Under the pieces are notes generated by a model. It was not told where the DNA came from, made no database searches, and saw nothing but the letters and a program-made list of their open reading frames with translations. A DNA stretch of 64,000 nucleotides from Actinopolymorpha alba DSM 45243 (lineage in GTDB: Bacteria; Actinomycetota; Actinomycetes; Propionibacteriales; Actinopolymorphaceae): contig NZ_KB892739.1 of assembly GCF_000373925.1 (NCBI RefSeq), positions 1-64,000 of the forward strand. Reading direction: 5' to 3'. The position numbers and the translations under genes were made by a program. Below are positions 43,808 through 63,990 of the stretch, piece after piece; position 1 is the first letter of the stretch; each line of letters begins with the position of its first letter.

Positions 43808-45177
43808 CCGGTCTCCTTCCGTGGGGTTTTCGTTACCCGCGAGACGCTGCTCGCGGGGACGGTCGCGGCGCTGGTCGCCGGGACGCGGGTGGGATCGTCA
43901 AGGAGCGGTTGCAGGGCGGCGTAGGCGGCACCGGTCGCGGCGGCCCACAGGCCGAGCCGGGACAGCTCCACCCGCGCGCCGCCGAGTTCGGGTGCGACGA
44001 CGCGGGCGGCGAGCTCCGCCTCGACCGCGGGCAGGAGGAACTCCCCCAGGCGGGCGAAGTAGCCACCGAGGACGAGCAGCCGGGGATTCGCGAGGTTGAT
44101 GAGCATCGAGGCTCCGAACCCCAGCGCGCGGCCGATCTGGTCGAACGCCCGCAAGGTGCGCTTGTCACCGGCCCGGGCGCGGTCCCGGAGCAGGTCGAGG
44201 CGTTCGTCGAGGTCACGTTCGTGGTCATGAATGGGATCGTCGGGCGCTCCCGCCAGGTGGAGGAGAGCCCCGAGGCCGCACAGGGTCTCCCAGCAACCGC
44301 GCCGCCCGCAGCCGCAGACCTCGCCCTCGGGGTCGATCGCGAGGTGCCCGACCTCACCGGCGAACCCCGCACTCCCCCGGACCACCCGGCCGTCCACGAC
44401 GATGCCGCCACCGACTCCGACGCCACCGGTGAGGTAGACGAGGTCGCGGTCGTCTGCGTCCGAGCCGGCGCTGAACTCCGCGAACGTCGCGAGGTTGGCC
44501 TCGTTGTCGACCGCGACCGCGGCGGGCTCGAGGTGGTGGCCGGCGAACGCGAACGTGCGGGCCAGCCGGGTCGAGATCAGGTCGCGCAGGGGTACGTCGT
44601 TCCAGTGCAGGTTGGGCGCCACCCGTACGACACCGCGCCCGACGTCAACCAGGCCTGGCGCGGCCACCCCGACACCGGCGAGGACGGTCTGGTCAGACGC
44701 GAGCGCTTTTCGCGCGACCTCGCGGAGAACGGTGCCAGCGCGGTCGACCACCTCGTCGATGCCACGGCCGGCCACATCGAACGACGTCCGCACGGTCGCC
44801 CGCTGGACACCTCCGAGGTCGAGACCGACGGCCGCGAGATAGTCGACGTTCAGCTCCAGGCCGAGGGCGAGGACGCGTTCTCCCACCAGCTCGACCCGCT
44901 GGCCTGGTCGCCCGACGACTCCCTGCGAGGTGGCCTGGTGAGTCCGGGCGAGCCCGCGTTCGGCGAGTTCGGCGACGAGGCTCGACACGGTGGCCTTGGT
45001 CAGCCGGGTGTCGACGGCGAGTTGCGGCCTGGTGCGCGGGCCGCCGCGAAGGGCGCGGAGCACCAGAGCCAGGTTCGTGCGGCGGACGGCGGCCTGATCC
45101 GCTCTGCCCGCCAGGTGCGTCGTCGCACCCCTCACCGAGTCGCCCGCACGCTGATGGTCCTTGATCTGTCCAGGCAC
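43804..45177 (-). CDS. ROK-family repressor (XylR-like)
   Basis: A 457-residue ROK regulator. The winged helix DNA-binding region is residues 30-85 ([39 protein letters not shown]). The sugar-kinase-like domain has the ROK zinc site [14 protein letters not shown] (C-x-C-x2-x-C) and [12 protein letters not shown]; the ATP motif [15 protein letters not shown] is present as in both repressors and kinases. By position and overlap with xylA it is almost surely the xylose repressor. GTG start at 45177 with an inverted repeat directly in front, a likely autoregulatory operator. An extra 20-residue tail follows the ROK domain. Confidence 0.92.
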
Positions 45178-45179
45178 CT

Positions 45180-45202
45180 ATTCGTTCAGGTCCCGAACAA
45201 AT
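45180..45202. promoter_or_regulatory. Predicted ROK (XylR) operator
   Basis: ATTCGTTC and GAACAAAT (45180-45187 and 45195-45202) are inverted repeats with one mismatch around a seven-base spacer, three bases ahead of the ROK gene start. The TTTGTTC-type half-sites resemble XylR/ROK operators. Confidence 0.55.
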
Positions 45203-45282
45203 TAGGGGCGGTCGGTCCGGGCGGTCAAGGCAAGGACCGATTCCCGCCAGCGTTCCGGCGGCCGGGCGAGCATCGTGGGCGC

Positions 45283-45879
45283 ATGACCACGAGCACCTCC
45301 ACGACCACCAGCACCTCCCTAACGACCGGCAGCTCCATGACGACCGGCACCTCCATGACCGCGAGCAGCTCCATGACCGGCGCCCCCGGGACCACCCGCC
45401 CAGACCTGCGCATCGTGCCGGTTCCCGCCGCGACGCTGCGCCGCCTCCGTGAGCAGGGGTACGACGACTTCGGTATCCCCTGGACTGTGGTCCCGGGCGC
45501 GCCCGGCCGACCGGTGCGCTGCTGCCTGCGACGTACCACGCCCGACGAGCGGGTCGTCCTCATCTCCTACGCGCCGGTCCACCACGCGGCGTTCACCGAC
45601 CGGACCGCGCCCTACAACGAGGTCGGGCCGATCTTCGTCCACGCCGAGGAATGCGAAGGCTACGTCGAGGACGGCGGCTTCCCGTCGGCCTGGCGGGAAG
45701 CCCCTCAGGTGCTGCGCGCGTACGCGCCGGACGGTGAGATCCTCGACGGCGTCCTCACCCAACCGGACGAGGATCGGTTGGCGATCGCGGCGGACCTCCT
45801 GCGCGAGCCCGGGGTCGCGTTCGTCCACTCCCGGTGCGTCGGACCCGGCTGCTTCGCCTTCGAGATCCGCCGCGCCTGA
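45283..45879 (+). CDS. DUF1203 family protein
   Basis: A 198-residue protein. After a Ser/Thr/Met-rich N-terminus comes the DUF1203 domain: LRIVPVPAATLRRLREQGYD, VLISYAPVHHAAFTDRTAPY, NEVGPIFVHAEECEGYV and GVAFVHSRCVGPGCFAFEIR, with conserved Cys and His. DUF1203 proteins are about 150-160 residues, so the first 40 codons may not be translated or are a recent expansion: the stretch is built of repeated ACCTCC/AGCTCC ATGACC units and has four in-frame ATGs. Function unknown. It is divergent from the xyl operon. Confidence 0.85.
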   Translation: MTTSTSTTTSTSLTTGSSMTTGTSMTASSSMTGAPGTTRPDLRIVPVPAATLRRLREQGYDDFGIPWTVVPGAPGRPVRCCLRRTTPDERVVLISYAPVHHAAFTDRTAPYNEVGPIFVHAEECEGYVEDGGFPSAWREAPQVLRAYAPDGEILDGVLTQPDEDRLAIAADLLREPGVAFVHSRCVGPGCFAFEIRRA

Positions 45880-45940
45880 GCCCTCTTCAAAACTCCTGGT
45901 CGCCGCACCGCCGTGTGGCGCCAAGGGGACCTTGTCCCCC

Positions 45941-46333
45941 TCACGCCGGAGGGCGAGCCAGTGGGCGCCAGCCGTCCCGGCCCGCGGTCACCACGCGTGG
46001 ACGTTGCGGAGCCAGCGGGTCGCGAGGCCGCGGCCGTGGCCGAGCGGCGACGACCGGGGCGTCTGGCTCCCACCGCCGCGGATCGGAGGTCAGCCCGAGG
46101 AGATAGGTGACCGTGCACTCGAGCGCGCTGGCGAGTTCCGGAAGCTTCGCGACATCGATACCGGCGCCGTGCTCCAGGCTGCTCAGTGCCTTGTTGGTGG
46201 TCATGACACCCAGCCGTGCCAGGCGGGTGACCACCTGCTTCTGGGTAAGGCCGAGGCCCCGCCGTCGCTCCCGTAGCCGCTGGGTCACGACCAGCCGCCG
46301 GCGTGCGTTTGACTCGGTTGGTTCCATCGCCAT
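45941..46333 (-). CDS. XRE-family helix-turn-helix regulator
   Basis: A 130-residue protein whose residues 15-80 form a Cro/C1 helix-turn-helix: RLRERRRGLGLTQKQVVTRL, then VMTTNKALSSLEHGAGIDVA and LASALECTVTYLLGL. The tail is Arg/Pro-rich and without known domain. ATG 46333 is preceded by GGGGGAGG five bases upstream, better than the ATG ten codons earlier. It sits between DUF1203 and xylB; whether it controls either cannot be told. Confidence 0.82.
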   Translation of the reverse strand: MAMEPTESNARRRLVVTQRLRERRRGLGLTQKQVVTRLARLGVMTTNKALSSLEHGAGIDVAKLPELASALECTVTYLLGLTSDPRRWEPDAPVVAARPRPRPRDPLAPQRPRVVTAGRDGWRPLARPPA

Positions 46334-46455
46334 CTCGCCTCCCCCGACGAGCACCCTCCCCATTCGGCCACTCGGCCAATCGTGGAGTCCGTCGGGAGCG
46401 GACAGCGGTTGGGTAACACCAATGACGCGAGCCCGCGCTGCGCTCGCCCGCCGCC

Positions 46456-47862
46456 TCAGCCGTGTAGGGACCCGCGCGCCTCGGCGTACGCCGAGCGGAT
46501 CCGCTCACCCGCCTCGGTGTCGACGTCGTCGCGTACGACCGCCGCACCCTGGTCCCACCGTGGTGGTTCGGCACCGCCCGCCAGCGCCCAGGCGGCCTGC
46601 CGGGCCGCACCCAAAGCGACGTACTCGGCGGGTGCCGGGACCGTGACGGGTACGCCGAACACCGTCGGCGCGACGGCCTGCACCACCGGCGACCGGGCCG
46701 CACCTCCGATCAACAGCACCCGGCGTACCACCACGCCGTGGTCGCGCAGCGCGTCGAGCCCGTCGGCGAGTCCACACAGCATCCCTTCGACCGCCGCCCG
46801 GGCGAGGTTGGCGGGGGTCATCGCGTCCCGGCGGAGGTTGTGCAGGGAGCCGGCCGCATCGGGCAGGTTGGGCGTGCGTTCGCCGTCGAGGTACGGCAGG
46901 AGGACGAGCCCGCCGGCACCGGGCCGCGCGGTCAGTGCCAGCTCGTTGAACCCGGCCACGTCGACGCCCAGCATCGCGGCGGTCGCGGTGAGAACGCGCG
47001 CGGCGTTGAGCGTGCACACCAGCGGAAGGAAGCGACCGGTCGCGTCGGCGAAGCCCGCGACAATCCCGGTCGGGTCGGCCGTCGGCTTGTCATGAGCCGC
47101 GAACACCGTGCCGCTGGTGCCGAGCGAGACCACCACGTCGCCGGCCTGGACACCAAGCCCGAGAGCCGCGCCCATGTTGTCGCCGGTGCCGGCCGAGACC
47201 AGCGCTCCCGCCGGCGCGACGCTGCCAGGAGCCACCGCACCCGCCGGCTCGGAAGGGCCGAGCACCCGTGGCAGGACCGGCGTACGTCCGAACGCCAACT
47301 CCAGCAGGTCGGTGCGGTAGTCGCCGGTGGCCGGCGACCAGTACGACGTGCCGGAGGCGTCGCCACGGTCGGTGACGGCTCGCTCCGGCCGACCACACAA
47401 CATCCAGGTGAGGTAGTCGTGCGGGAGCATGACCTGGGCCACCCGGTCGGCATTGGAGGGCTCGTGTTCGGCCAGCCAGGCCAGCTTCGTCACGGTCATG
47501 CTCGCGACGGGGACGCTGCCGACCGCCTCCGCCCACGCCTTCGGGCCGCCGAGCCGCTCGGTCAGCCGGGCCGCGGCGCCGGCCGATCGGGTGTCGTTCC
47601 ACAGCAGCGCCGGACGTACGACCTCGCCGGCCTCATCGACCGTCACCATGCCGTGCTGCTGCCCGGCGACGCCGATCGCCGCCGCCTCGTCGAGCAGTCC
47701 GTCGCCAGCTTCCTGGAACGCCGACCACCACGCCTCGGGCGGGCACTCGGTGCCATCGGGGTGCGGCGCTGACCGCTCGGCGAGCACCTCGCCGGAGTCA
47801 GCGTCACAGACGACGACCTTGCAGGACTGCGTGGACGAATCGATCCCGGCGACCTTGGGCAT
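46456..47862 (-). CDS. xylB: Xylulokinase
   Basis: A 468-residue FGGY kinase that phosphorylates D-xylulose to xylulose 5-phosphate. N-terminal ATP/Mg loop [15 protein letters not shown], substrate signature [10 protein letters not shown] and [13 protein letters not shown], the FGGY-C phosphate motif [20 protein letters not shown] and adenosine-binding [18 protein letters not shown]. The Asp of HD-Y-LTW is the likely substrate ligand and the catalytic Asp lies in [11 protein letters not shown]. Length and motifs are standard. With xylA and the ROK repressor it completes D-xylose use; no xylose transporter is in the window. Confidence 0.95.
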
Positions 47863-47889
47863 AAGGAAAACCTAGTGTCGTCGGGAGGC

Positions 47890-49803
47890 TTAGGCCAGAC
47901 CGCCCACCGCGCGCTCGCGCAGGGCGCGGCGATGCTGTTCGAGCGCGACCAGCTCGCCAAACATCTTGTTGTAGGCGTCGGTCTGGTCGACGGGATTCGT
48001 GCGCTGCAGGCGGGACTTCACATCGGCGATCAGGCGCGACACCGAGAGCTCCCGCACCCGCGCGAGCAGCGAGTCGGCATAGCGGGCATCCGGCCCTCCG
48101 GCCGCCCGGAGCGGCTCGACGGCCAGCGCCGTGACCAGGCTGCGAAGGCCGTCGTCGGGCGTCCGGTCACCCACCGCGGAGACCCACGCGTCTCCCCCGG
48201 CCGAGGTGCCCGCGCCGCCGGCCGCCGCCACTGACTGGCGGAGCGCGGCGTACGCCGGATGGGTGAAGTCGTCGTCGTCGAGAGCGTCGAACTCCGGCCC
48301 GACGAGGGTCGGCGACTGGATGACGAGCTTGAACAACTCCCGCTCCACCCAAAGGCGCGGGTCGGCCGGATCGGGCAGCGGCGTCGCCGGGACCCGGGCG
48401 GGCTGCGAAACCTCCGCGGCGCGGACCGGTGCGGACCCGCGTCCGGGTTGACCCGCACCGCCATTGGCGGACGCGTTCATGGCCCGGCGTACCTCCGCGC
48501 GGACCTCCTCGATCTCCATGCCGAGCATGCCGGCGAGCTCGCGGGCGTACGCACCAACCTTCGCCTTGTCGCGGACCGAGCCCACCAGCGGCGCGGTCGC
48601 CCGCAACGCGTCGACCCGCCCGTCAGCCCGGTCGAGGTCGTAGCGGGTGAGGATGTTGCCGAGAACGAAGCGGTAGAGGGGGACCCGGCGGGCGACGAGA
48701 TCGCGCACCGCGGCGTCTCCGTGCTTCAGGCGCAGGTCACACGGGTCGAGGCCGGACTGCTCCACCGCGACGTAGGTCTGGGAGACGAACTGCTGGTCGC
48801 CCTCGAACGCCCGCATCGCCGCGCGCTGCCCCGCCTCGTCGCCGTCGAAGGTGAAGATCACCTCGCCGCGGAACTGCTCGTGGTCGAGGAGCAGCCGGCG
48901 GAGGACCCGCGCATGGTCTTCACCGAACGCCGTACCGCAGGTCGCCACGGCTGTCGGCACTCCCGCCAGGTGGCAGGCCATCACGTCGGTGTACCCCTCG
49001 ACGACCACCGCCTGCGAGCGCCGGGCGATCTCGCGGCGGGCCAGGTCGACGCCGTACAACAGCTGGCTCTTGTGGTAGATCGGGGTCTCTGGCGTGTTGA
49101 GGTACTTCGCCTCGATCCGGTCGTCCTCAAACAACCGCCGCGCACCGAAGCCCACCACATCACCGGACAGCTCGCGGATCGGCCACACGAGCCGGCCACG
49201 GAAGCGGTCATAGTGTCCGCGGGCGCCGCTGGCGACCAGACCGGCGGTGTTCAGCTCCTCGTCGGAGAATCCCCGAGCGCGCAGGTGACTGAGCAGCGCG
49301 AGCGGCCCGCGCGGCGCGAACCCCACGCCGAACTGCTCGGCCGCCTCCCGGTCGAAGCCGCGCTCGGCGAGGAACGACCGTCCCTGCCCGGCGTCGGGTG
49401 AGGTGTGGAGCTGCTCGGCGTAGAACTCCGCGGCCGCCTTGTGGGCCTCGATCAGGCGGGCGCGAGTGCCCGGCTGCCGGCGGTCGGGCGCGGCGCCGTC
49501 GGCGTAGCGGAGCTGGATACCCGCCCGGGCGGCCAGGCGTTCCATCGCCTCGACGAACGACAGCCCCTCGATCTCCTGGATGAACCAGATCGCGTCGCCG
49601 CCGACGCCGCAGCCGAAGCAGTGGGCGTAACCAATCTGGGGGCGGACGTTGAAGGACGGCGACTTCTCGTCGTGGAACGGGCAGAGACCCTTGAGTGACC
49701 CCGCGCCGGCCGGCCGCAACGTGACGTACTGCGAGATCACCTCGTCGATCCGCGTGCGTTCGCGGACCAGCGCGATGTCGTCGTCGCGGATCCGGCCAGC
49801 CAT
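47890..49803 (-). CDS. dnaG: DNA primase
   Basis: A 637-residue bacterial primase that makes RNA primers at the fork. The CHC2 zinc finger is complete (Cys41 and His44 in CPFHDEKSPSF; Cys62 and Cys65 in CFGCG). The TOPRIM part has VVEGYTDVMACHLAG and IFTFDGDEAGQRAA with the acidic metal sites. The C-terminal DnaB-binding domain follows a Gly/Ala/Pro linker near residue 450 (ELFKLVIQSPTLVGPEFDAL). In most actinobacteria dgt lies directly upstream; here dgt is 11.8 kb away on the same strand with a catabolic operon between. Confidence 0.97.
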   Translation of the reverse strand: MAGRIRDDDIALVRERTRIDEVISQYVTLRPAGAGSLKGLCPFHDEKSPSFNVRPQIGYAHCFGCGVGGDAIWFIQEIEGLSFVEAMERLAARAGIQLRYADGAAPDRRQPGTRARLIEAHKAAAEFYAEQLHTSPDAGQGRSFLAERGFDREAAEQFGVGFAPRGPLALLSHLRARGFSDEELNTAGLVASGARGHYDRFRGRLVWPIRELSGDVVGFGARRLFEDDRIEAKYLNTPETPIYHKSQLLYGVDLARREIARRSQAVVVEGYTDVMACHLAGVPTAVATCGTAFGEDHARVLRRLLLDHEQFRGEVIFTFDGDEAGQRAAMRAFEGDQQFVSQTYVAVEQSGLDPCDLRLKHGDAAVRDLVARRVPLYRFVLGNILTRYDLDRADGRVDALRATAPLVGSVRDKAKVGAYARELAGMLGMEIEEVRAEVRRAMNASANGGAGQPGRGSAPVRAAEVSQPARVPATPLPDPADPRLWVERELFKLVIQSPTLVGPEFDALDDDDFTHPAYAALRQSVAAAGGAGTSAGGDAWVSAVGDRTPDDGLRSLVTALAVEPLRAAGGPDARYADSLLARVRELSVSRLIADVKSRLQRTNPVDQTDAYNKMFGELVALEQHRRALRERAVGGLA

Positions 49804-50027
49804 GCCGGCGAGTCTACGACCGACGGCACCGGCGGCTGGCGGCGGCCGGCGGCGGTCGGGTCCCAGGCCGCCGAGACCAAAGCTTCACCCGAAGACCCGA
49901 ACCGGCCGTCCCGGTTTCAACGTGATGACGAATGACCGCCTGACGGTCTCAGGTCGATAACAGCTGTCGGTGAACGGTTTGCCAGAACGAAATTCACAGT
50001 GATCATCTTTGCCAAATCAATTTCCTT

Positions 50028-50402
50028 CCGGTTGGCAATCACCTCACCAAGGAGGAGGCAGCGGACTTCTACAACGAGGGCTGGATCATGGAGCCGGGCA
50101 GTCTGCCTGACGCGTCACTGATCCCCTCCTCCGAGCCCTACAAGCTGAGCAAGTGGGACGCCGGCCAGTCGATCACGTTGACCGCCAACGAGAAGTACTG
50201 GGGCGACCCGCCCGCCGTGCAGACCGTGGTCATCCGGTTCATCGCCCAGGACGAGCAGGTCCAGGCTCTGCAGAACGGCTTGGTCAACATCATCGAACCG
50301 CAGTCGAACCCCGACCTGCTCAACCAGGCGGCCCTGACCGATCGGGGTAACGGCCACCCGGTGGCGTGCCACTTCGCCGCCACCGATCTGACCGTCCTCT
50401 GA
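50028..50402 (+). pseudogene. Fragment of a family 5 (Dpp/Opp-type) solute-binding protein
   Basis: From about 50028 the frame reads PVGNHLTKEEAADFYNEGWI, then PYKLSKWDAGQSITLTANEK and YWGDPPAVQTVVIRFIAQDE, an internal part of SBP_bac_5 lipoproteins (the WGxxPxxxxxxxRxI motif). There is no signal peptide or start, and homology ends near 50330, before a stop at 50400. Family members have over 500 residues, so this is about one fifth of a gene. An inverted repeat TTGCCAA/TTGGCAA (50009-50038) lies at its left end. It marks scar DNA between dnaG and the next operon. Confidence 0.7.
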
Positions 50403-50431
50403 TCCGCTTGGGTCGCGCGCGGCGGGGGCGC

Positions 50432-51430
50432 TCACGCTACAGCTGGGTCCGTCGCGCAGGTCAGCGTGTCCTTCAGCAGGGCGGTCGCGGCGCCGAGCGG
50501 GCTGGACGCACCACCGCTCACGGTCACCACACCGATCTCGCCGCAGTCGTACGACACCGCCTTCTCCGGGCCGGCGATCGCGGCGAGCGGATCGGTCTCC
50601 CCCAGCCGCTCCAGCTGGACGCTCACCAGACCGGGCCGGTCGACGGACGCGACGGCGACGGCCCGCAGCCGGGTGCCGGCACGGCGTGCGGCGACCGCTT
50701 CCTCGGCGGTCGCCGCGGTGATCGGGGCGAGGTCGGTGTCGAGCGTCGAGACGTCCCAGTCCCACAGCAGGCCGGCGAGGATGCGTACCTTCCCAGCGGC
50801 GTCCGCTCCTGACAGGTCCGCGGCGGTATCGGCCTCCGCAATGCCGCGTTGACGGGCGTCCGCGACCGCCTCGGCGAGGCTCGCGCCGTCGCCCATCCGG
50901 TCCACCACGTAGGTGCTCGTGCCGTTCAGGCAGGCACGTACGGCGCGGATGTCGTAGCCCAGCAAGGCATGTCGCGCGACGTCGGCGGCGGGCAGGGCGG
51001 CGCCAGTGGTGGCCGAGACCCCGAAGCCGAGCCCCGCGTCCGCGCTGGCGCGGCGGAGCCGGCGCCAATGCGCGAGGACGTGACACTTGGTCGCCGTGAC
51101 CACGTGCGCGCCGAGCCGCCAGGCCGTGAGCGCCTCCTCTGCCGCCACGGCGGCGAACCCGGGATCGGATGGGTACGCCTGAACGACGACCCGCGCGCCG
51201 GTCGCCACGATGAGCCGCGCCAGTGGGACCCGCGGGCCCCACTCCGACCGCGGCGGAACGTTTGGGCCCGCAAGCTGGCATTGCGTGCTGCGGCCCGTCA
51301 CAGCCGCGATGCGGAGGCGGTAGGCGTACCGCTGCTCAAGGGCATCCGAACGGCCACGCACCAGCCGGACGTACGCCTGACCGACAGGGCCGTACCCGAC
51401 CAGCACGATCGGGACATCGAGAACGCTCAC
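50432..51430 (-). CDS. Homoserine dehydrogenase-like oxidoreductase
   Basis: A 332-residue NAD(P)-dependent enzyme. The nucleotide loop is PIVLVGYGPVGQAYVRLV; TATKCHVLAHW matches the Lys-containing TANK motif; and LNGTSTYVVDRMGDGASLAE, then IAEADTAADLSGADAAGKVR is the homoserine dehydrogenase catalytic region with the Asp and Lys of D-x3-D-A-x2-K. No ACT domain, so no threonine feedback is expected. It is the last gene of the ten-gene operon; GTG 51430 overlaps the M24 gene stop (GTGA). In this setting it may handle aspartate semialdehyde made by transamination, or a related semialdehyde. Confidence 0.82.
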   Translation of the reverse strand: MSVLDVPIVLVGYGPVGQAYVRLVRGRSDALEQRYAYRLRIAAVTGRSTQCQLAGPNVPPRSEWGPRVPLARLIVATGARVVVQAYPSDPGFAAVAAEEALTAWRLGAHVVTATKCHVLAHWRRLRRASADAGLGFGVSATTGAALPAADVARHALLGYDIRAVRACLNGTSTYVVDRMGDGASLAEAVADARQRGIAEADTAADLSGADAAGKVRILAGLLWDWDVSTLDTDLAPITAATAEEAVAARRAGTRLRAVAVASVDRPGLVSVQLERLGETDPLAAIAGPEKAVSYDCGEIGVVTVSGGASSPLGAATALLKDTLTCATDPAVA

Positions 51431-52584
51431 GAACCCAGCACAGGTCCCACCGGGCACGTTGTCAAGATCTCATTGCCCTGCTCGGTGACGAGGACCGTGG
51501 CGGAGAATCCGATCCCACCGACACCTTCCAGCCGAAGGGTCGGCACGACATGGACAACCATGCGGGGCTGGAACTCCCGGTGTTCGGTCTCCTTCAACGA
51601 CAGCAGGTGACCCTCACCCCAGTCGGGCGCGAACGCGATTCCTACCGAATATCCGCTGCGCTTTCGGTAGGTGTGAAGCATCCCGTGGTCGCCGATGACC
51701 CGGCGGCAGGTCTCGTGCGCCTGCGCCGGCGTGGCGCCCGGACGCACCATCTCAACCGTCGCCTGCCTGGCGGCCGCGCAGGCCTCCGCCATCCGAGCCA
51801 GGTCACCCGTCAGACGGCCGTGCCACACGGTGTGCATGAGCGGCGCGTGGTACCGATCCCGGCTGGCGGCCATTTCCAGGAGGACCGGCTCGTCTCGCGC
51901 GACCACGCGATCGGTCCAGCTGGCGTGGATGGTCCCTGACCGTGGACCGGACGCGACGAAGGGTTCCATACCGAAGTACTCCGACCCGTACGACACAAGT
52001 CCGGCGAAAGCTGCCGCCGCGATGTCCCGTTCCCGGGCACCGACCTGAACCGCCTCCACCGCTGCCAGCATCCCGGCGTTCGTCACCGTGGCCGCCGCAC
52101 GGATCTTCGCGATCTCCGTGTCAGACTTGAGGACTCGCAGCTCCGCCAGCACCCCGTCGAGCGCGAACGGCTTGTCGTGCTTGACGCCGCCGAGCTGCGC
52201 CGCCAACCGCGCGTGCGCGACCGGAGGAAGGAACCAGGAGTTCTCCTCCAGGCCCACGATCCGGGCGTCTGGAACCAACTCCCGCACCAGATCGACCGTC
52301 GCCCCGAGCGGGTCTAGGGCATCCGGGTAGCCGTGGATCTGCTGCAGATGGGTCGTGGCCCGGGCGTTGACCGTTTCGGTTTCCCGGGTGAGGACCGCCG
52401 GCTCTCCCGTTGCCGGGACCACCAGGCACTGGTAGGTGTAATAGCCGGGCGTCGCATGGCCACTCAGATAGCAGACGTTCTCCGGGGTGTGCACAACGGC
52501 AACGTCAACACCTTCTTGACGCAGGACCGCTTGCAGTCGGTCAACCCGGGACCCGAACTCCTCGGCCGGGAACGCTGGACTCAT
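51427..52584 (-). CDS. M24-fold hydrolase lacking metal ligands, DoeA/creatinase-like
   Basis: A 385-residue pita-bread-fold protein with a creatinase N-domain (VDVAVVHTPENVCYLSGHAT). In metallopeptidases of M24 the C-domain carries Asp, Asp, His, Glu, Glu; here the aligned places read LLEMAASRDRYHAPLMHTVW, RSGYSVGIAFAPDWGEGHLL and VVHVVPTLRLEGVGGIGFSA, so all five are altered. That pattern is known from creatinase and ectoine hydrolase DoeA, which cleave C-N bonds without metal; the SVGIAFAPDWGEGH block is very DoeA-like. It likely hydrolyses a cyclic or N-substituted amino acid. ATG 52584 overlaps the preceding stop (ATGA). Confidence 0.8.
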   Translation of the reverse strand: MSPAFPAEEFGSRVDRLQAVLRQEGVDVAVVHTPENVCYLSGHATPGYYTYQCLVVPATGEPAVLTRETETVNARATTHLQQIHGYPDALDPLGATVDLVRELVPDARIVGLEENSWFLPPVAHARLAAQLGGVKHDKPFALDGVLAELRVLKSDTEIAKIRAAATVTNAGMLAAVEAVQVGARERDIAAAAFAGLVSYGSEYFGMEPFVASGPRSGTIHASWTDRVVARDEPVLLEMAASRDRYHAPLMHTVWHGRLTGDLARMAEACAAARQATVEMVRPGATPAQAHETCRRVIGDHGMLHTYRKRSGYSVGIAFAPDWGEGHLLSLKETEHREFQPRMVVHVVPTLRLEGVGGIGFSATVLVTEQGNEILTTCPVGPVLGS

Positions 52585-53423
52585 GGGGACAACCTCTCGA
52601 CTCGCTGGTGTTTCAGATCGGTACGCCGATCCCGCAGGTAGGTAAGGTCACGGCGGACGGTGTGGACGCGCGCGGATTCGATGGCGACGACGGCGATCCC
52701 CTGCTCGGGCGCGACCTCGGCCAGTAGGGAGCCGCGTGGGTCATAGACAGCGCTGCGCCCGAAGAAGTCCAGCCCGTCGATCTCGCCGACGGCGTTCGCG
52801 ACCGCCACATAGACGCCGTTCTCGACGGCGCGCGCCGGGTGGTAGATGTCGTAACGGCTCTCCTGGTCGCCGTGACAGAACGCCGAGGCGAACACCATCA
52901 CGTCCACTGGAGGATCGGCGGTCGCGTACGCGCGGACGAACTCCGGAAACCCTTCGTCATAACAGATCCCGACGCCGAGAACGATCCCGCCGATCTCGAG
53001 CCGGAGCAACCCGCCCCCGGGCACGAAGACGTCCCGTTCCCCTTCCCACAGGTGCGCCTTGTGATAGGTCGCGATCCGCATACCCGCGCCGTCGAACACC
53101 ACCGCCGCGTTGGACAACCCGCCATTCCGGCGTACGGCTGCGCCGACCAGGAGAGCGGTCCCCGCCTGCCGGCAGGCCTGTCCCAAAGCCGCGAGCAGAG
53201 GCCCGCTGAGGTCGACGGCATACCTGTCGGGTTGGGCCGCGAGTCCCGCCAGGTCGTACCCGCACAGGAAGAGTTCCGGCAGGACCAGGAGGCGGGCGCC
53301 GGCCCGGCCAGCCCCGATCACCAGCTCCGCCGCCTTCTCGGCGTTCACGGCGACGTCGCCTGGCACGCTCGGCGCCTGCCCGACCGCCAGGAGGATCGAT
53401 GGCGGGGGCGTCACCTCCACCAT
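52581..53423 (-). CDS. Carbon-nitrogen hydrolase (nitrilase superfamily)
   Basis: A 280-residue amidase of the nitrilase superfamily. The catalytic triad is complete: Glu in LVLPELFLCGYDL, Lys in TYHKAHLWEGERDVF and Cys in GVGICYDEGFPEFVRAYA. The SRYDIYHPARAVENGVYVAV stretch is typical of omega-amidase/N-carbamoylase-like branches. It probably splits an amide or carbamoyl group from the imported substrate or an intermediate. It overlaps the M20 gene by 13 bases upstream and the M24 gene by 4 bases downstream. Confidence 0.87.
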   Translation of the reverse strand: MVEVTPPPSILLAVGQAPSVPGDVAVNAEKAAELVIGAGRAGARLLVLPELFLCGYDLAGLAAQPDRYAVDLSGPLLAALGQACRQAGTALLVGAAVRRNGGLSNAAVVFDGAGMRIATYHKAHLWEGERDVFVPGGGLLRLEIGGIVLGVGICYDEGFPEFVRAYATADPPVDVMVFASAFCHGDQESRYDIYHPARAVENGVYVAVANAVGEIDGLDFFGRSAVYDPRGSLLAEVAPEQGIAVVAIESARVHTVRRDLTYLRDRRTDLKHQRVERLSP

Positions 53424-54580
53424 GCCCCCTCGTGGCGCAGGAGTTCGCGCAGGATCGCCTCATATCCACGTACTCCGCATCGAAGGTCGTCGAGTGCCAC
53501 CGACTCGTCGACCGCGTGCATGACCTCGAGTTCGCCGGGACCGACCACCAGGCAGGGAATCCCCGCCGCACGAAAATGTGTCATGTCGCAGTTGACGACC
53601 AGCCCGCCAAGCTCTGGTGACAGGCCCGCGCCCGCAAGGCCGAGTTGACAGGCCACCACGAACGGATGGTCCGCCGGGGTCTCCGACGGCCCGCCGGTGC
53701 TGGGAGCACATGCGGAGATCCGGGCCTGCGCCGGCGCGTGCTCGGCGTTGAACCGCTCGAGGATCTGCTCGACCTCCACGAGAGCGTCCCGGTCCGTTTC
53801 GCCCGGCACCAGCCGCCGGTCGAGCGTGAGGCGGCAGCGTTCAGGCACCGCGTTTGGCGCCTCTCCACCCTCGACCAGGACCGGCGTGACCGTCGGCGCT
53901 CCGACCAGGGGGTGGCTCCGCCCGGCGAGCACACCGGCGTAGTCGGTGATCAGCTCCACAAGCTGGGCGGCGTGCACGATCGCGTTCACGCCGTTGTGCG
54001 GTGTCGCAGCGTGCGCGGCGACACCCGTCACCTCGATGACCGGACGCACCGATCCCTTGTGTGCGGTGAAAAGCCGGCCACCGGTGGGCTCCCCGACGAT
54101 CGCCGCGTCCGGCCGGTGGTCGGTCAGCAGCCGCCGCGCGCCGGTGCTCCCGACCTCCTCATCGACCACAGCCGTGTAGACGAGAGTGCCGGAGAGCCCG
54201 GCCGCTTCCTCGAGCAGTCCGAGGGCGGCGACTGCCATCGCCGCCAGACTCCCCTTGGCGTCGGCCGCACCCCGCCCGTAGAGCCGACCGTCCCGTTGCG
54301 TGGGTTCGAACGGCGGCGACGTCCAACCCGGCCCGGCCGGAACGACGTCCAGGTGCGAGTTCAGCATCACGGTCGGCCCGCCGGAGCCAAACTCCGCCCG
54401 GGCAATGAGGTTCGGGCGCCCTGGCGCCACCTCGTCGAGCTCGACATCGAAGCCGCCCTGGCGCAGGACGTCCGCCAGAAGTCCGGCGGCACCGGCCTCG
54501 TTGCCGGCTGGATTGGTCGTGTCGAGTGCCACCAGATCACAGAGGAGCCCCACCACATCGGGGATCTGGGCAGAAGTCAT
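53411..54580 (-). CDS. M20-family deacylase/peptidase (ArgE/DapE-like)
   Basis: A 389-residue dizinc hydrolase. Metal ligands: His in VMLNSHLDVVPAG, Asp in YGRGAADAKGSLAAMA, Glu-Glu in AVVDEEVGSTGA, Glu in AIVGEPTGGRL and the C-terminal His. The dimerization domain (VIEVTGVAAHAATPHNGVNA) contains the conserved His. Family members remove N-acetyl, N-succinyl or N-formyl groups from amino acids, for example acetylornithine deacetylase. ATG 54580 overlaps the stop of the enolase-like gene. In the operon it would release the free amino acid after the ring-opening or side-group step. Confidence 0.88.
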   Translation of the reverse strand: MTSAQIPDVVGLLCDLVALDTTNPAGNEAGAAGLLADVLRQGGFDVELDEVAPGRPNLIARAEFGSGGPTVMLNSHLDVVPAGPGWTSPPFEPTQRDGRLYGRGAADAKGSLAAMAVAALGLLEEAAGLSGTLVYTAVVDEEVGSTGARRLLTDHRPDAAIVGEPTGGRLFTAHKGSVRPVIEVTGVAAHAATPHNGVNAIVHAAQLVELITDYAGVLAGRSHPLVGAPTVTPVLVEGGEAPNAVPERCRLTLDRRLVPGETDRDALVEVEQILERFNAEHAPAQARISACAPSTGGPSETPADHPFVVACQLGLAGAGLSPELGGLVVNCDMTHFRAAGIPCLVVGPGELEVMHAVDESVALDDLRCGVRGYEAILRELLRHEGAWWR

Positions 54581-55668
54581 CGCATCCTCACGAGGGTTTC
54601 GTCTGTCAGGTTCACGTTGACACCGAGGCCAACCCCCCGTGGCACCACGACGGCACCGGCGCGCAGCTCCAACGGCCCGGCGACGTCCTCGGCGACGTTG
54701 GCGCATCCCCACAGCTCCGCCATCTCGACGTCGAGGGCGACCGCCAGCTGCGTGGTCGCCGCACAGCCGAGCCGGCCGCAGTCCATCTGGCCGAGCGCCA
54801 CGCCAAGACCGAGCTCGCGCGCCACCTCGACTGCCCGGAATAGCTCGTCGACCGTCCCGCACTTCTCCAGCTTGAGGTGTACGCCGTTGACCGCGCCGGC
54901 CGCGGCCAGGCGCCGTACCGAGCTGGCGTCCCCCGCGCTCTCGTCCGCGTACACCGGGACCTTCCCCGCCGCGCGTACCCGCGCCATCGCGTCGTCGTCA
55001 CCGGCCGGTGTCGGCTGTTCGATCCAGGCGACGTCGGCCGATACCAACCAGGGCAGGGCGGCCAGCGCCCGCTCGACATCCCAGGCCCCGTTGGCGTCCG
55101 CGAGCAACACCGTCCGCGGGCCGGCGGCCGCGCGTACCGCCGCCAGCCGGTCGGCGTCAACGCCCGCTTGCGGGTGACCGACCCGCACCTTGATCCGGGC
55201 GAACCCCTCGGCTACCGCGGCAGCCGCCCTGGCCGCGGCTTCCTCCGGCGTACCAAAGCCAATCTGCGCGTGGGTGGGCATCGCGTCGACGATCGGGACC
55301 TGACCACGGTGGCCAAGATGCTGGGCGAAGGAGACACCGGCCTGCCGGGCGGCGGCGTCGCGGCAGGCGAGATCGAAGCCCATCGCGGCAAGCCTTGAAC
55401 GCTTCAGCAGCCTGGGCAGGATCGCCGGTGGGCCAAGCTCCGCTGCGAGTTCGGCGTACGCGGCGAGGACGTCATCGGCTGTCTCGCCGGTCGCGTACGC
55501 GCCGTTGCCCCGGATCTCGGCCCATCCGCTCCCACCGTCGCGCAAGCGCACGTTGACGAACACCTCATCCAGGTGGTGGGCGTCAACCCGGGCATGACGC
55601 AGTGAAACCCGCAACGGGAGGGCGATCCGGTGGACGCTGAAGGCCGCCACCTCGCTCGACCGTGCCAC
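54577..55668 (-). CDS. Enolase-superfamily racemase/epimerase-like protein
   Basis: A 363-residue member of the MLE-like branch (N-acylamino acid racemase and dipeptide epimerase relatives). Metal ligands are Asp in TVLLADANGAWDVE, Glu in VAWIEQPTPAGDDDA and Asp in PVYADESAGDAS; the C-terminal catalytic Lys is in GVHLKLEKCGT. The N-side base motif, KxK in typical members, reads RIKVRVG here: the second Lys is Arg, so one-base or altered stereochemistry is possible. The start is taken as GTG 55668, one base after the aminotransferase stop; GTG 55650 is an alternative. A role in inverting an N-acyl amino acid fits its M20 neighbour. Confidence 0.82.
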   Translation of the reverse strand: MARSSEVAAFSVHRIALPLRVSLRHARVDAHHLDEVFVNVRLRDGGSGWAEIRGNGAYATGETADDVLAAYAELAAELGPPAILPRLLKRSRLAAMGFDLACRDAAARQAGVSFAQHLGHRGQVPIVDAMPTHAQIGFGTPEEAAARAAAAVAEGFARIKVRVGHPQAGVDADRLAAVRAAAGPRTVLLADANGAWDVERALAALPWLVSADVAWIEQPTPAGDDDAMARVRAAGKVPVYADESAGDASSVRRLAAAGAVNGVHLKLEKCGTVDELFRAVEVARELGLGVALGQMDCGRLGCAATTQLAVALDVEMAELWGCANVAEDVAGPLELRAGAVVVPRGVGLGVNVNLTDETLVRMR

Positions 55669-55669
55669 C

Positions 55670-56911
55670 TCAGCGGATTTCAAAATGCCCCACGACCTCG
55701 AGCAGCCGGTCGAGAGCCGGCGCCCAGACAGACTCGTCCTGCGCGAAGCACAGCCGCATATGCCCAAGGCCCGACGGCCCGAACTGGTAGCCCGGGTTGA
55801 CGACAATGCCCGCGTCCTTCTTCAACGCCAGCGCGATCCGCTGATCGCTGGTGTCGACAAGGACCTCGGGGAAGACGTACGCCGTCCCCCACGCGGGACG
55901 GACCCGCATCACCCGCGAGGCGTTGATCGCCTCGACCGTCATGTCGCGCAGGGATTGGTACTCCTTCAGGCGATTCCGCAGGAACTCCCCATCGTCGGCC
56001 AACCAGTGCGTCAACAGATGCTGGGCGTACGCGGGTGCCCGCAGAGCCGTCACGGACTGGACGTCCTCCATCCGGTCGACAATCTCCCTCGGCCCGACCG
56101 CGACGCCGAGGCGATAACCCGAAAGAGACTCGGTCTTGGACGGGCCCAGCAGCGTGACCGTGCGTCCGGCCATCCCGGGCACCGCCGCGAGATGGTGGAA
56201 CTCCTCGCCGTCGTAGACCAGACGGCAGTACAACTGGTCGGCTAGCACGAGAATGTCGTGATCCTGCGCGGCCCGCGCGATCCGCTCGATGGTCTCCTGG
56301 TCGTAGATCGCGCCGGTCGGGTTGTTGGGATGGCTGAAGACCATCAACCGCGGCTTGCGTTCGCACGCTTTCTCGAACGCCGACCAGTCCAGGGTGGGGC
56401 GTCCCTCGTCCGGAACCACCATGGGAACCCGCAGGACCTCGGCCCCGAAATACCGCAGCATCCGCTCGGTCGAGAGGTAGTCGGGATCGGGAAGGACGAC
56501 AACATCGCCCGGTGAGAGGATCGCGGCCAGCGCGATGAACAACGCACCCTGGGTGCCGGGCGTCAGGATGACGTCGGCGTCTCCGGTGCTCGGCAGCCCG
56601 AACTCCCGCTCGACGTTGGCCGCGACGGTCTCACGCACCGCGCGGTCACCGCGATAGGGCGTGTACGTCATCCCGCCGCCGCCCGCTGCCGCTGTGAAGC
56701 TCGGGAGCGCCCAGTCAGGTGCGGGGAACCGGTGCGTGTCGGCATAGGTCACGTCCAGCAGCGGCGTGCGCCCAGGCGCGTTCTCCAGTTCGCGTTCGGC
56801 CTCCCGCAGCGACATTCCCAACACCTCACGGAGTTCGGGTAGCGCCAGCCGGTCGATCGACGCGGGCACGTGCGTTTCTATCGTTCTCACCTCTCGATGT
56901 ACTGCGGTCAT
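55670..56911 (-). CDS. PLP-dependent aminotransferase class I/II
   Basis: A 413-residue fold-type I aminotransferase. The cofactor lysine is in VTLLGPSKTESLSGYRLGVA; LMVFSHPNNPTGAIY carries the PLP-contacting Asn, ILVLADQLYCRLVYDG the Asp/Tyr pair, and the C-terminal Arg in GLGHMRLCFAQ binds the substrate carboxylate. It is unlike the class III enzyme DoeD of known ectoine pathways. It could transaminate diaminobutyrate-like amines to a semialdehyde, or another amino acid. Its ATG overlaps the GntR stop (ATGA), and its stop adjoins the enolase-like start. Confidence 0.88.
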   Translation of the reverse strand: MTAVHREVRTIETHVPASIDRLALPELREVLGMSLREAERELENAPGRTPLLDVTYADTHRFPAPDWALPSFTAAAGGGGMTYTPYRGDRAVRETVAANVEREFGLPSTGDADVILTPGTQGALFIALAAILSPGDVVVLPDPDYLSTERMLRYFGAEVLRVPMVVPDEGRPTLDWSAFEKACERKPRLMVFSHPNNPTGAIYDQETIERIARAAQDHDILVLADQLYCRLVYDGEEFHHLAAVPGMAGRTVTLLGPSKTESLSGYRLGVAVGPREIVDRMEDVQSVTALRAPAYAQHLLTHWLADDGEFLRNRLKEYQSLRDMTVEAINASRVMRVRPAWGTAYVFPEVLVDTSDQRIALALKKDAGIVVNPGYQFGPSGLGHMRLCFAQDESVWAPALDRLLEVVGHFEIR

Positions 56912-57627
56912 GCGGATGGATCTGGTCGTTTCTGGTCTTCGGTCCGGCCTTGGAGTTCTGGAAGCAGGCGGTTGAGGGCTGTGATCCCGCCACGAACGTG
57001 GTCGCGGGTCACCGCGCGCATCCGGTCGGCGTCGCGGGCGCGAAGGGCGTCGATCATCGCCGCGTGCTCGCGAAGGGACGTCGTGGCCCGGTCAAGATCC
57101 GAGAGGTACATCGCGATGTAGCGGTCGCTGAGGGTCCGCAGGCGTTCAAGGACCTCAAGTGAATGCGGCATCTGGGCGAGTCCGTAGATCGCGCTGTGGA
57201 ACTGCCGGTCGAGAAGGGCGAACCTTGCGAGGTCCCCGCGTTCGGTCACCCACCGCTGCTCCTCGACGATCTCGACGAGCTCGTCGAGATCCTTGTCTGT
57301 CACGGCTTCGACCGCGGCACCCCCGAGCAGCACCTCCATCGCCTCGCGCCCGGCGTACACATCCCGGGCGTCGGCGAGGGAGACCGGCGTGATCATCCAC
57401 CGTTGGTGCGGCCGATCGACCACCAGCCCTTCGGCCGCGAGCCGTACCAACGCCTGCCGCAGCGGGACCCGACTGATCCCGAGTTCAGTGGCCAGGCCCT
57501 CCTGGTCGAGGGTCTGCTGGGGCGCCAGCCGGCCAGCGAGGATCCATTCCCGAAGACGCAGGTAGGCCCAGTCCTGCTTGCGCCACGACATGGGTAGCTG
57601 CGCGGGCGCGGAAGGAGGTAGCGGCAT
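56908..57627 (-). CDS. GntR-family regulator, FCD type
   Basis: A 239-residue FadR-subfamily regulator. The winged helix starts LRLREWILAGRLAPQQTLDQ and has EGLATELGISRVPLRQALVR, the typical recognition helix. The FCD domain binds a small effector through a metal site: Asp and His in DLARFALLDRQFHSAIYGLA, His in SLREHAAMIDALRA and His in VTRDHVRGG. It lies inside the operon between importer and enzyme genes, so it is likely the substrate-responsive control of the whole cluster. No operator can be assigned with certainty. Confidence 0.88.
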   Translation of the reverse strand: MPLPPSAPAQLPMSWRKQDWAYLRLREWILAGRLAPQQTLDQEGLATELGISRVPLRQALVRLAAEGLVVDRPHQRWMITPVSLADARDVYAGREAMEVLLGGAAVEAVTDKDLDELVEIVEEQRWVTERGDLARFALLDRQFHSAIYGLAQMPHSLEVLERLRTLSDRYIAMYLSDLDRATTSLREHAAMIDALRARDADRMRAVTRDHVRGGITALNRLLPELQGRTEDQKRPDPSA

Positions 57628-57669
57628 GGGAGCTCCGTTTCAGGACGTCTCGGTCAGGCGTGGCACGGG

Positions 57670-58422
57670 TCAGTGCGCGAGGATCTGCGCGAGGAAGTGT
57701 TGCGTACGCGCGTGACGAGGCCGGTCGAACGTCTCCTCCGTCGGCCCCTCCTCGATGATCTGGCCCGCGTCCATGAACACCACCCGGTCGGCCGAGCGCC
57801 GCGCGAAGCCCATCTCGTGTGTCACCACCACGATCGTCATGCCCTCGGCGGCCAGCGCCCGCATCACTTCGAGAACCTCCCTGGTGAACTCCGGGTCCAG
57901 TGCGCTCGTGGGTTCGTCGAACAACATCACCGCCGGTCGCATCGCCAACGCTCGCGCGATCGCCACCCGCTGCTGCTGGCCACCGGAGAGCTCGAACGGG
58001 TAGTGGTCAACCTTCTCGGCCAGGCCGACCTTCACGAGTAGGTCACGCGCCTCGGCCTCGGCCTGTGCGGCGGGGATACCGCGTACCCGTCTGGGTGCGA
58101 GCGTGACGTTCTCCAGCGCCGTCATGTGGGGGAAGAGGTTGAACTGCTGGAACACCATGCCGATCTCGCCGCGCAGAGGTTTGGGCTGCTCCCCCGCGGC
58201 AGCGAACCGCGTGCCACGGAAGGAGATCTCACCCGTCTGCACCGGCTCCAGGCCGGCGAGACAGCGCAGCATCGTGGACTTCCCCGCACCCGAGGGCCCA
58301 AGGATCACCACGGACTCACCCTCGCGGATGCCAAGCGTCACGTCCTTGACCACGGCCGCTCCGTGGTAGCTGCGGGTGATCCCGTCAGCCCGCAGCAGCG
58401 TTGGCGAGGTGGTCATCGTCAT
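57670..58422 (-). CDS. Amino-acid ABC transporter ATP-binding protein
   Basis: A 250-residue GlnQ/HisP-type ATPase. Walker [18 protein letters not shown]-loop [18 protein letters not shown], signature [16 protein letters not shown], Walker [15 protein letters not shown] and the switch His in [12 protein letters not shown]. The LFPHMT stretch after the Q-loop is the hallmark of polar amino-acid importers. Its start overlaps the permease stop by one base. It energises uptake for the operon's pathway. Confidence 0.94.
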
Positions 58423-59135
58423 CAGTTGCCTCCCGTCGTCGCGGGCATCACGGGCGGTGTCAAGGGCCCCTTGCGGCGAGCCGAGGCACGTCTCGTCACA
58501 TCAAGTCGGCGTTCGACCGCGTTGACAGCAAGGGTGAACAGCGTGGTGAGTACGAGATAGTGGATCGCCGCGGCGACCAACGTGTTGACATAGTCGAAGT
58601 TCGCCGCGGCGATCCGCTGGGCCGACAGCAGTAGGTCCTGGACCGCCACCACGGAGGCCAGCGCCGAGGTCTTGAGCATGCCGATGAACTGGTTACCGGT
58701 CGGCGGCAGGATCACCCGCGCCGCCTGCGGCAGCACCACCCAGCGCAGGATCTGGCGTTCGGACAAACCCAACATGTGCGCGGCGGTGCGCTGTCCGCGG
58801 TCGACCGACAGCAAGCCCGCCCGGATGATCTCCGCCATGTAGGCCGCTTCGTTCATGCTCAACGCGATCACCGCACAGGTGAACGGCGAGAACCGCAGGC
58901 CCCAACCCGGTAACACGTTGAAGACGAAGATCAGCTGGAGCAGGACCGGCGTTCCTCGAAACAGCCAGATGTAACCGTTGGCCAGCCATCGTGCCGGCGC
59001 GACCGAACTGGTCTTGACCAGTCCGAGCAGCAGGCCGCCGACGATACCCAGAACCATGGAGACCACGGTCAGGGCAAGGGTGATTCCCGCTGACTGGAAG
59101 AAGGTCGCGGAGAACACGTAGTCGAGGAACGACAC
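58422..59135 (-). CDS. Amino-acid ABC transporter permease
   Basis: A 237-residue HisM/GlnP-type permease with five membrane helices. The ATPase-contact EAA loop is [20 protein letters not shown] with [20 protein letters not shown], and [20 protein letters not shown] is the conserved N-terminal signature of this family. GTG start preceded by GGGAG. Only one permease is present, so it probably acts as a homodimer with two copies of the ATPase. Confidence 0.93.
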
Positions 59136-59187
59136 AGAAGACTCCCGTCGTCAGACGCGTGACGTGCTCGGCTCCACTGTGGAGCGG

Positions 59188-60060
59188 TCAGCCCTTCTTG
59201 AAGTAGTTGACCTCGGGCGGCAGGTGATACTTCTCCAGCAACTTGCCGTACTCCCCGCTCGCGACGAACTTGTCGAGCGCCGCCTTGACCGCCTTGGCCG
59301 TCTCGGTGTCGCCTTTTCGCACCGCGATGCCGATCTTGGTGCCGAGGTCGAACGTCGCCGCGACCTCAAGCGAACCCTTCTCCTGGGTGATGGTGTACGC
59401 CGCTCCCGGCGTCGAGGTGTCGAACGTGTCAGCCCGGCCCGACTTGACCGCCAGCAGCGCGTCCTGGTTCGTCGGCAGCGCCAGGATGTTCATCGCCGGC
59501 TTGCCGGCCGCCTTGAGCTGCTTGTTGAACTCGTTCATGTACTGCTCGCCGATGGCGCCGCGGGTCACGGCCACCGTCTTGCCGGACAGGTCATCGGGCA
59601 CCTTCGCGATCTTCTTCGGGTTGCCCTTGGGAACCAGCAGCGACTCACCGATCACCATGTAGGGAACGAAGTCGACGACCTTCTCCCGCTCGGGCTTGAT
59701 GTACATCGCCGAGTTGATGACGTCGATGCGCCTACCCTGCAGGGCGGGGATGAGGCCGTCGAAGTCGATGTCGAGCGGCTTGGAGTTCAACCCCATGGAC
59801 GCACCGAGTTTCTGGATCATCTCGATGTCGAAACCGTCGGGCTGGCCGGAGCTGCCCTTGAACTCGAATGGCGGGAAGGATGCGGCCGTGCCGTAGGTCA
59901 GGGTGCCGCTCTCGACCAGCTGCGTGGGTGGCGCGACCTCTGCCTTGGAGGTGGATCCACCAGTTGCCCCGTCCGCACCTCCGCAGGCGGCGAGCGCGCC
60001 GATGACGGTGAGCGTTCCGAGCGCCGCGATCGTGCGCCTCAACCTTCGAGTTACAACCAT
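59188..60060 (-). CDS. Family 3 solute-binding lipoprotein (EhuB-like type)
   Basis: A 290-residue lipoprotein with signal MVVTRRLRRTIAALGTLTVI and lipobox LAAC. The binding domain has TLTYGTAASFPPFEFKGSSG, PDGFDIEMIQKLGASMGL, ALQGRRIDVINSAMYIKPER and VVDFVPYMVIGESLLV, the standard family 3 periplasmic binding pattern for amino acids, opines and ectoine. Ligand residues cannot be read reliably by eye. It is the first gene of the operon; ATG 60060 is chosen since the signal peptide starts there. Its ligand defines the pathway. Confidence 0.9.
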   Translation of the reverse strand: MVVTRRLRRTIAALGTLTVIGALAACGGADGATGGSTSKAEVAPPTQLVESGTLTYGTAASFPPFEFKGSSGQPDGFDIEMIQKLGASMGLNSKPLDIDFDGLIPALQGRRIDVINSAMYIKPEREKVVDFVPYMVIGESLLVPKGNPKKIAKVPDDLSGKTVAVTRGAIGEQYMNEFNKQLKAAGKPAMNILALPTNQDALLAVKSGRADTFDTSTPGAAYTITQEKGSLEVAATFDLGTKIGIAVRKGDTETAKAVKAALDKFVASGEYGKLLEKYHLPPEVNYFKKG

Positions 60061-60198
60061 GTTTCCTCGTTTTCGCAGGTCAGAGCGTTCTGGATCCCCG
60101 CATCCCGTAATCCAGGAATCATGAAGGGTCAGCTGATCGCGGGTCAAGAGTTGAGCCGAAAGTTCACCGGACGGGAGGTGCCGGATCACAACGAGTCA

Positions 60199-60230
60199 GA
60201 GGCCGGTCGGCGTCACGACCGACCGGCCTC
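60199..60230 (-). terminator. Hairpin terminator after the FAD reductase gene
   Basis: A perfect 11-bp stem (60199-60209 with 60220-60230) and a ten-base loop, 86 bases after the stop of the minus-strand gene at 60316 and before the solute-binding protein gene. No T-run follows, as is common for actinobacterial terminators. Confidence 0.6.
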
Positions 60231-60315
60231 CACACCGCTCACCGCGAGGACTGCCGCATAAGAAGGGGAGCGGGCTTACCGAGTTGGAAAGTGAAAAACG
60301 AAGTCCCGCGGCTTC

Positions 60316-61548: not shown

Positions 61549-61581
61549 TGCACACCTCCAGATGATCGGTTTCTGGGCAAC

Positions 61582-62877: not shown

Positions 62878-62960
62878 CGCCGATGACCTTAGCCGCGCTG
62901 GCCCGGCCCGTCACGTACGGCCGTCTCCGCGAGACGGCCGGCGCGCCGCCTCCTCCGGAG

Positions 62961-62966
62961 TACAGT
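62961..62966 (+). promoter_or_regulatory. -10 box of the iron permease promoter
   Basis: TACAGT fits TAnnnT; transcription would begin near 62973, directly at the iron box that follows. Confidence 0.4.
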
Positions 62967-62976
62967 GAGGCCGGGG

Positions 62977-63983: not shown

Positions 63984-63990
63984 CGCACAC

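Follow-up and report, generated by a model that had tools for sequence, protein, structure and literature searches.

Creatinase is a metal-free enzyme of the M24 family that acts on a C-N bond. The ectoine hydrolase EutD belongs to the same family, and work on its structure is reportedly the source for assigning Glu255 (printed numbering) as its nucleophile. A ligand-free site with Glu at this column is a feature of the EutD/DoeA type (TIGR02993), whose genes are partnered by EutABC and DoeB and, in some clusters, by amino-acid-type ABC import. The M24 metallopeptidases, including prolidase (Xaa-Pro dipeptidase) and aminopeptidase P, have the pita-bread fold and the five metal ligands Asp, Asp, His, Glu, and Glu. 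A further ectoine-hydrolase type, DoeA_2 (NF038259), is one that we infer to be the doeBDAC type. PMC7192451 reports genetic evidence for ectoine degradation by a doeBDAC cluster in Methylotuvimicrobium (see also PMC11067125), and PMC13188858 describes putative ectoine clusters of Gram-positive bacteria containing eutD with abgB-thrA-adh. Here we compare with these systems an M24 gene and its neighbors in a window of 64,000 nucleotides from Actinopolymorpha alba DSM 45243 (GCF_000373925.1, contig NZ_KB892739.1, positions 1-64,000, forward strand).

Results

Loss of the metal ligands in an M24 protein of A. alba

The protein, P0001, and the codons at its five ligand columns are as follows.

51427..52584, minus strand: M24-fold hydrolase P0001, predicted metal-free, 385 aa without internal stop
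51874..51876, minus strand: codon of Glu237, first ligand, Asp to Glu; column of EutD Glu255
51841..51843, minus strand: codon of Pro248, second ligand, Asp to Pro
51649..51651, minus strand: codon of Tyr312, ligand His to Tyr
51544..51546, minus strand: codon of Val347, ligand Glu to Val
51502..51504, minus strand: codon of Ser361, last ligand, Glu to Ser

P0001 matches Peptidase_M24 with 119.5 bits and Creatinase_N with 59.7 bits, both above the Pfam cut-off, and has the pita-bread fold of the M24 metallopeptidases. A sequence-only reading of the window had claimed that the five usual ligands are absent from this protein, quoting three motifs. These motifs are present in P0001, and the claim was confirmed by alignment to nine rows of metal-type prolidases taken from relatives of the window genome, which carry Asp, Asp, His, Glu, and Glu in 9/9, and to the solved Deinococcus prolidase (5cdl), which gave the identical five substitutions. 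The first change is conservative, the residue still being an acid; the other four are not.

Relocation of the ligands was examined with a shift test, in which each ligand residue was sought within three residues of its own column. Ligands in shifted positions, the outcome that the sequence-only reading had named as counting against it, did not appear in P0001 for any of the five columns, and the full set was recovered in 0/83 aligned rows of the P0001 clade versus 9/9 metal rows. P0001 could still be imagined as a metallopeptidase with relocated ligands given its M24 fold, and the last ligand Glu, alone among the five, reappears one residue later in 72/83 clade rows, P0001 not being one of them; the shift test rejects a metal peptidase built on shifted ligands, and we regard this reading as extremely improbable. 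The ligand loss goes beyond chance, since Glu237, Tyr312, and Ser361 are invariant (83/83 clade rows) and the same pattern of E, P, Y, I/M, and S/T occupies the five columns in 11/11 EutD-like rows. The resemblance of the site to that of ectoine hydrolases, also proposed from the sequence at the outset, is thereby borne out.

A ten-gene operon with a recurrent gene set

P0001 is encoded in a run of ten genes with a common direction, bounded by those for a binding protein and a homoserine-dehydrogenase-like protein; several of the ten overlap by 1 to 31 bases. The other nine are listed below.

50432..51457, minus strand: homoserine-dehydrogenase-like protein (PF00742), which closes the run and also occurs in loci L032 and L035
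52581..53423, minus strand: nitrilase-superfamily amidase (CN_hydrolase), gene overlapping that of P0001 by 4 bases, Glu-Lys-Cys triad intact
53411..54580, minus strand: M20 ArgE/DapE-type deacylase, zinc ligands intact; start inferred, open frame to 54862
54577..55650, minus strand: enolase-superfamily protein of the MLE/epimerase group, K-x-R for K-x-K; start inferred, frame to 55806
55670..56911, minus strand: class I/II PLP aminotransferase, PLP Lys intact
56908..57627, minus strand: GntR/FCD regulator, from Pfam
57670..58422, minus strand: ABC transporter ATPase, amino-acid type, from homology to annotated plasmid operons
58422..59135, minus strand: ABC transporter permease, amino-acid type, from family scans
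59188..60060, minus strand: substrate-binding protein (SBP_bac_3), Ser for Asp; start inferred, open frame to 60189

Related loci were collected by scanning 84,980 species genomes, the best 80 of 287 related stretches being used. Among these best 80, M24 orthologs 59 to 65% identical to P0001 occur in Actinomyces (MAG), Kineosporia, Streptomyces, Amycolatopsis, Auraticoccus, Saccharopolyspora, Wenjunlia, and Nocardia, the Roseovarius ortholog is 53% identical, and those of Paenibacillus, many Proteobacteria, and a few others are 39 to 45% identical. The gene and operon recur in three main phyla, Actinomycetota, Bacillota, and Proteobacteria. Closer to home the gene is patchy, because the best M24 match in each of five other members of the genus and two other members of the family is only 25 to 30% identical. 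The GC content per 2 kb is 0.65 to 0.71 in the operon region and 0.62 to 0.72 in its surroundings; it resembles the surroundings, so nothing follows from base composition about a recent import of the operon. Elsewhere in the window, and not linked to the operon, positions 46456-47862 encode a xylulokinase (TIGR01312, 437.9 bits with a cut-off of 380.25).

Mapping of reference proteins onto 84 loci and the window (85 units) revealed a recurring set composed of the importer, the GntR regulator, the M20 enzyme, the MLE-type enzyme, the M24 protein, an aminotransferase, an amidase of either the nitrilase or the amidotransferase type, and an aldolase (in some loci a homoserine dehydrogenase), with exceptions that include L028, L029, L049, L060, L065, L085, L092, and L102. 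The ORF clusters of the same 85 units give minimum counts, because some genes that tblastn shows lie outside the clusters: M24 in at least 82, M20 in at least 72, the MLE-type enzyme in at least 63 (all 63 of these units also having M20), a DHDPS-type aldolase in at least 51, the proteobacterial-type aminotransferase in at least 51, an SDR dehydrogenase in at least 44, an amidotransferase in at least 44, the nitrilase in at least 14, and the homoserine dehydrogenase in at least 3. No locus has members of both the nitrilase cluster (14 loci) and the cluster of the CTP-synthase-like amidotransferase (44 loci), as if one took the place of the other; this largely tracks phylogeny and may be a lineage-wise replacement. 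The aldolase and homoserine dehydrogenase clusters also share no locus, the latter being found in just three. Among the papers listed by a literature search, and judged by titles and abstract openings, none describes this operon, which is widespread but apparently uncharacterized.

Several loci depart from the common arrangement. A side branch of the clade (L028, L029, and L096) is found outside the main operon, its neighbors being amide hydrolases and genes of the 5-oxoprolinase-like or carboxyltransferase-like type; L053, L065, and L107 each contain two M24 genes of the P0001 kind; and L112, on a Rhizobium etli Mim1 plasmid, has a EutD-like gene (575.6 bits with a cut-off of 613) near eutBC, M20, and amidase genes.

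Partner enzymes and binding protein

Zinc ligands, catalytic triads, catalytic Lys residues, and the K-x-K motif are the functional signatures of the partner families, and by these motifs the partner enzymes appear catalytically intact. The M20 zinc ligands are kept in 73/73 sequences (the last His in 71/73), the nitrilase triad in 14/14, the amidotransferase Cys-His-Glu triad in 44/44, the aldolase Lys and Tyr in 52/52, and the aminotransferase Lys in 51/51 and 9/9 of the two sets. All 63 MLE-type sequences retain the three metal ligands and the two late Lys residues. Epimerases of the MLE group carry K-x-K, as do the two printed solved relatives of this enzyme; the second Lys of the motif is Arg in all 63, which makes a two-base racemase doubtful.

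The printed rows of the operon binding proteins retain the Arg that would be expected to bind a carboxylate. At a site that is Asp in four printed solved relatives, three of which are reconstructed ancestral proteins, Ser is found in 60/61 operon binding proteins. We take this Asp to be the residue that binds the alpha ammonium group. It is likewise missing from two EhuB ectoine-binding proteins, where Thr and Pro stand instead. The simplest reading is that the main operon imports a compound without a free alpha ammonium group, N-blocked in an ectoine-like manner. The clue does not hold for all relatives, because two binding proteins encoded next to other metal-free M24 genes, those of Methylobacterium L029 (M24 gene in the clade side branch) and R. 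etli L112 (M24 gene EutD-like), retain the Asp.

Closest relatives in sequence and fold

The top solved sequence match of P0001 is the ectoine hydrolase DoeA/EutD (PDB 6twj, 6twk, 6yo9) with an E-value of 2.4e-34. A structure model was built with AlphaFold2 from 24 sequences (mean pLDDT 92.0), and a Foldseek search with this model ranked EutD first. In VIA-align comparisons the likeness to EutD/DoeA covers the full-length fold (Z of 42 to 44), the two best scores being 44.2 (rmsd 2.1, 378 residues aligned) and 43.5, and Glu255 of EutD aligns with Glu237 of P0001. The Glu237 column is presumably, then, that of the catalytic Glu of EutD. Creatinase (PDB 1chm, 1kp0, 7yto) follows in fourth place with Z about 41 (41.6), and metal prolidases reach 41.0. 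EutD-like and metal-type M24 proteins are little separated by fold (Z of 44 versus 41), and because metal prolidases tie with creatinase, fold alone does not decide; therefore, the residues carry the argument. Xaa-Pro dipeptidase and aminopeptidase P resemble P0001 in fold and in His220 and differ from it in the five metal ligands.

We considered whether P0001 could act as creatinase does, releasing urea from an N-amidino (guanidino) acid with no ring opening. Such an acid would likewise be without a free alpha ammonium group, and creatinase, which was compared by fold and score alone, adds to its structural rank a sequence match that spans residues 4 to 381 of P0001 (E 3.9e-13). EutD is nearer in both sequence and fold, and deacylation by the M20 enzyme would have no obvious substrate, and we consider creatinase-like action improbable.

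A clade probably separate from the ectoine hydrolases

P0001 scores 264.4 bits with the DoeA_2 model NF038259, its best family score, and 167.6 bits with the eutD model TIGR02993, and reaches neither curated cut-off (575 and 613). The three DoeA_2 control rows pass NF038259 with 697 to 745 bits (E 1.1e-224 to 5e-210). Plain membership in an ectoine-hydrolase family is ruled out by scores so far under both cut-offs. Scanned singly, 24/24 clade members match both ectoine-hydrolase models, the best DoeA_2 E-value being 1.2e-91.

In a careful maximum-likelihood tree of 93 rows, 64 of them in the P0001 clade, this clade stands apart from EutD and DoeA_2, with node support that is only moderate (87/90); 98% of 200 bootstrap trees leave it intact if rows that belong to no group are disregarded. 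The window subclade of 10 rows has support of 99/100. The DoeA_2 controls form a neighboring group, separate from the P0001 clade with moderate support, and are the nearest ectoine-type rows (81/94 for a grouping that includes three long ungrouped rows as well). The deeper branching order is unsure because of several long branches. P0001 thus probably belongs to a separate clade; this, like the scores under both cut-offs and the recurrent operon, goes beyond the sequence-only reading.

Conservation of the active site was assessed at 76 reference positions that are invariant and identical across three EutD and three DoeA_2 rows, which are small control sets. Thirty-eight of the 76 persist in 90% or more of the 83 clade rows and the other 38 do not; those kept include His220, Trp223, Glu237, Arg244, Tyr245, His246, Arg309, Tyr312, Trp322, Glu324, and His345, with His220, Tyr245, and Arg309, like Glu237, invariant in 83/83. 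Eight positions are at least 95% fixed in the clade and unlike both ectoine types (Trp117, Gly205, Met206, Glu207, Gly217, Lys308, Ala319, and Arg351), of which Glu207, Lys308, Ala319, and Arg351 are otherwise in the three DoeA_2 rows. Kept residues and fixed differences together suggest the same chemistry on another substrate. Because half of the reference residues are kept, a metal-free C-N hydrolase is the best prediction for P0001, and the expectation of such an enzyme rather than an aminopeptidase, raised in the sequence-only reading, gains support from the residues common to ectoine hydrolases.

Residue 362, which adjoins the last ligand column, is Glu in 11/11 EutD-like rows and Asp in 3/3 DoeA_2 and 9/9 metal rows; within the clade it is the Glu noted above, and in the window subclade it is Ala (9/10) or Gly (1/10). 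This change and the loss of every metal ligand could indicate a catalytically dead or regulatory M24 protein. The retention of the ectoine-hydrolase residues, with Glu237 fixed throughout the clade, and the recurrence of the gene in an operon over three main phyla argue against this reading, which we judge very unlikely.

Is the substrate ectoine?

P0001 could be a third type of ectoine or hydroxyectoine hydrolase, in which case the route would run from ectoine to N-acetyl-diaminobutyrate, diaminobutyrate, aspartate semialdehyde, and homoserine through the M24 protein, the M20 enzyme, the aminotransferase, and the homoserine dehydrogenase. DoeA_2 is the best-scoring family and the nearest in the tree, and a control locus (L120, the wider locus of one DoeA_2-type row) has M20, aminotransferase, M24, and aldehyde dehydrogenase genes side by side in the doeBDAC order of the cluster described in PMC7192451. 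The putative Gram-positive ectoine clusters in PMC13188858 contain thrA and abgB, and its Actinomycetota clusters may partly overlap with the present operon; the words racemase, nitrilase, and M20 are absent from the main text of that paper.

Against this, the scores of P0001 lie under half of either cut-off, its clade appears separate with eight positions fixed unlike both ectoine-hydrolase types, and the partners differ, being M20, MLE-type, amidase, and class I aminotransferase proteins; the published ectoine route has no step for the MLE-type enzyme or the amidase. No homolog of EutA, EutB, EutC, or DoeB was found in window positions 44001-64000 (30% identity, 60% length); among the 85 loci, 4 have EutA-like genes, 6 have EutB-like genes, and 1 has a DoeB-like gene. 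A separate idea, that the host makes ectoine itself, was rejected, no ectoine synthase being found in the window genome (95.86% complete) by a search that was positive in 9/13 other genomes. A search of the window genome for DoeB, run without a positive control, likewise found nothing. When hosts were examined (50 of 80 loci submitted), 8/49 carried, besides the operon, a DoeA above the cut-off, and a few more had DoeA relatives just under it (best 564 bits). The remaining 41/49 are without DoeA above the cut-off, which neither supports nor refutes an ectoine role. Because eight hosts keep a DoeA of their own in addition, the role of the operon is probably not ectoine degradation; the substrate of P0001 is probably another compound, and a third type of ectoine hydrolase appears rather unlikely.

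Discussion

With five ligands replaced, EutD as the closest relative, and Glu237 invariant, P0001 is best read as a C-N hydrolase of the ectoine-hydrolase type that works without metal, and we favor, with moderate confidence, a role in which it opens a ring or unblocks a nitrogen for an operon of small-molecule catabolism. The computation shows the ligand loss, the conserved ectoine-hydrolase residues, the recurring gene set, and the intact partner motifs; from these we infer the metal-free state, the substrate class, and the following mechanism and order of steps. The ABC importer would take up an alpha-carboxylate compound with a blocked alpha nitrogen, for which a cyclic amidine or lactam is the likeliest candidate. 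Glu237 would attack the carbon of the C-N bond with His220 as proton shuttle, and water would then release an N-acyl amino acid, a scheme modeled on the one reportedly proposed for EutD Glu255. The M20 enzyme would deacylate this product, the nitrilase would remove an amide, and the aminotransferase would give a 2-oxo acid or semialdehyde that the homoserine dehydrogenase (in the window) or the aldolase (in many other hosts) could pass to central metabolism. This route offers no firm place for the steps of the MLE-type enzyme and the amidase.

Whether P0001 acts by ring opening on a cyclic amidine or lactam that resembles an amino acid but is not ectoine, with the operon as an unrecognized degradation pathway for a compound of plant-associated or soil habitats as the host names suggest, we regard as evenly balanced. 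Annotated plasmid relatives of P0001 are labeled "Xaa-Pro peptidase family protein," which is unlikely to be right because the metal ligands are lost, and the looser label of ectoine hydrolase is without support from the scores. Should the operon serve to break down a different cyclic amino-acid derivative, it would act on an environmental compound without a known route, and its binding protein would be a direct handle for identifying the imported compound. The pathway would then combine two fold families with altered canonical sites, a ligand-free M24 protein and a K-x-R enolase-superfamily enzyme.
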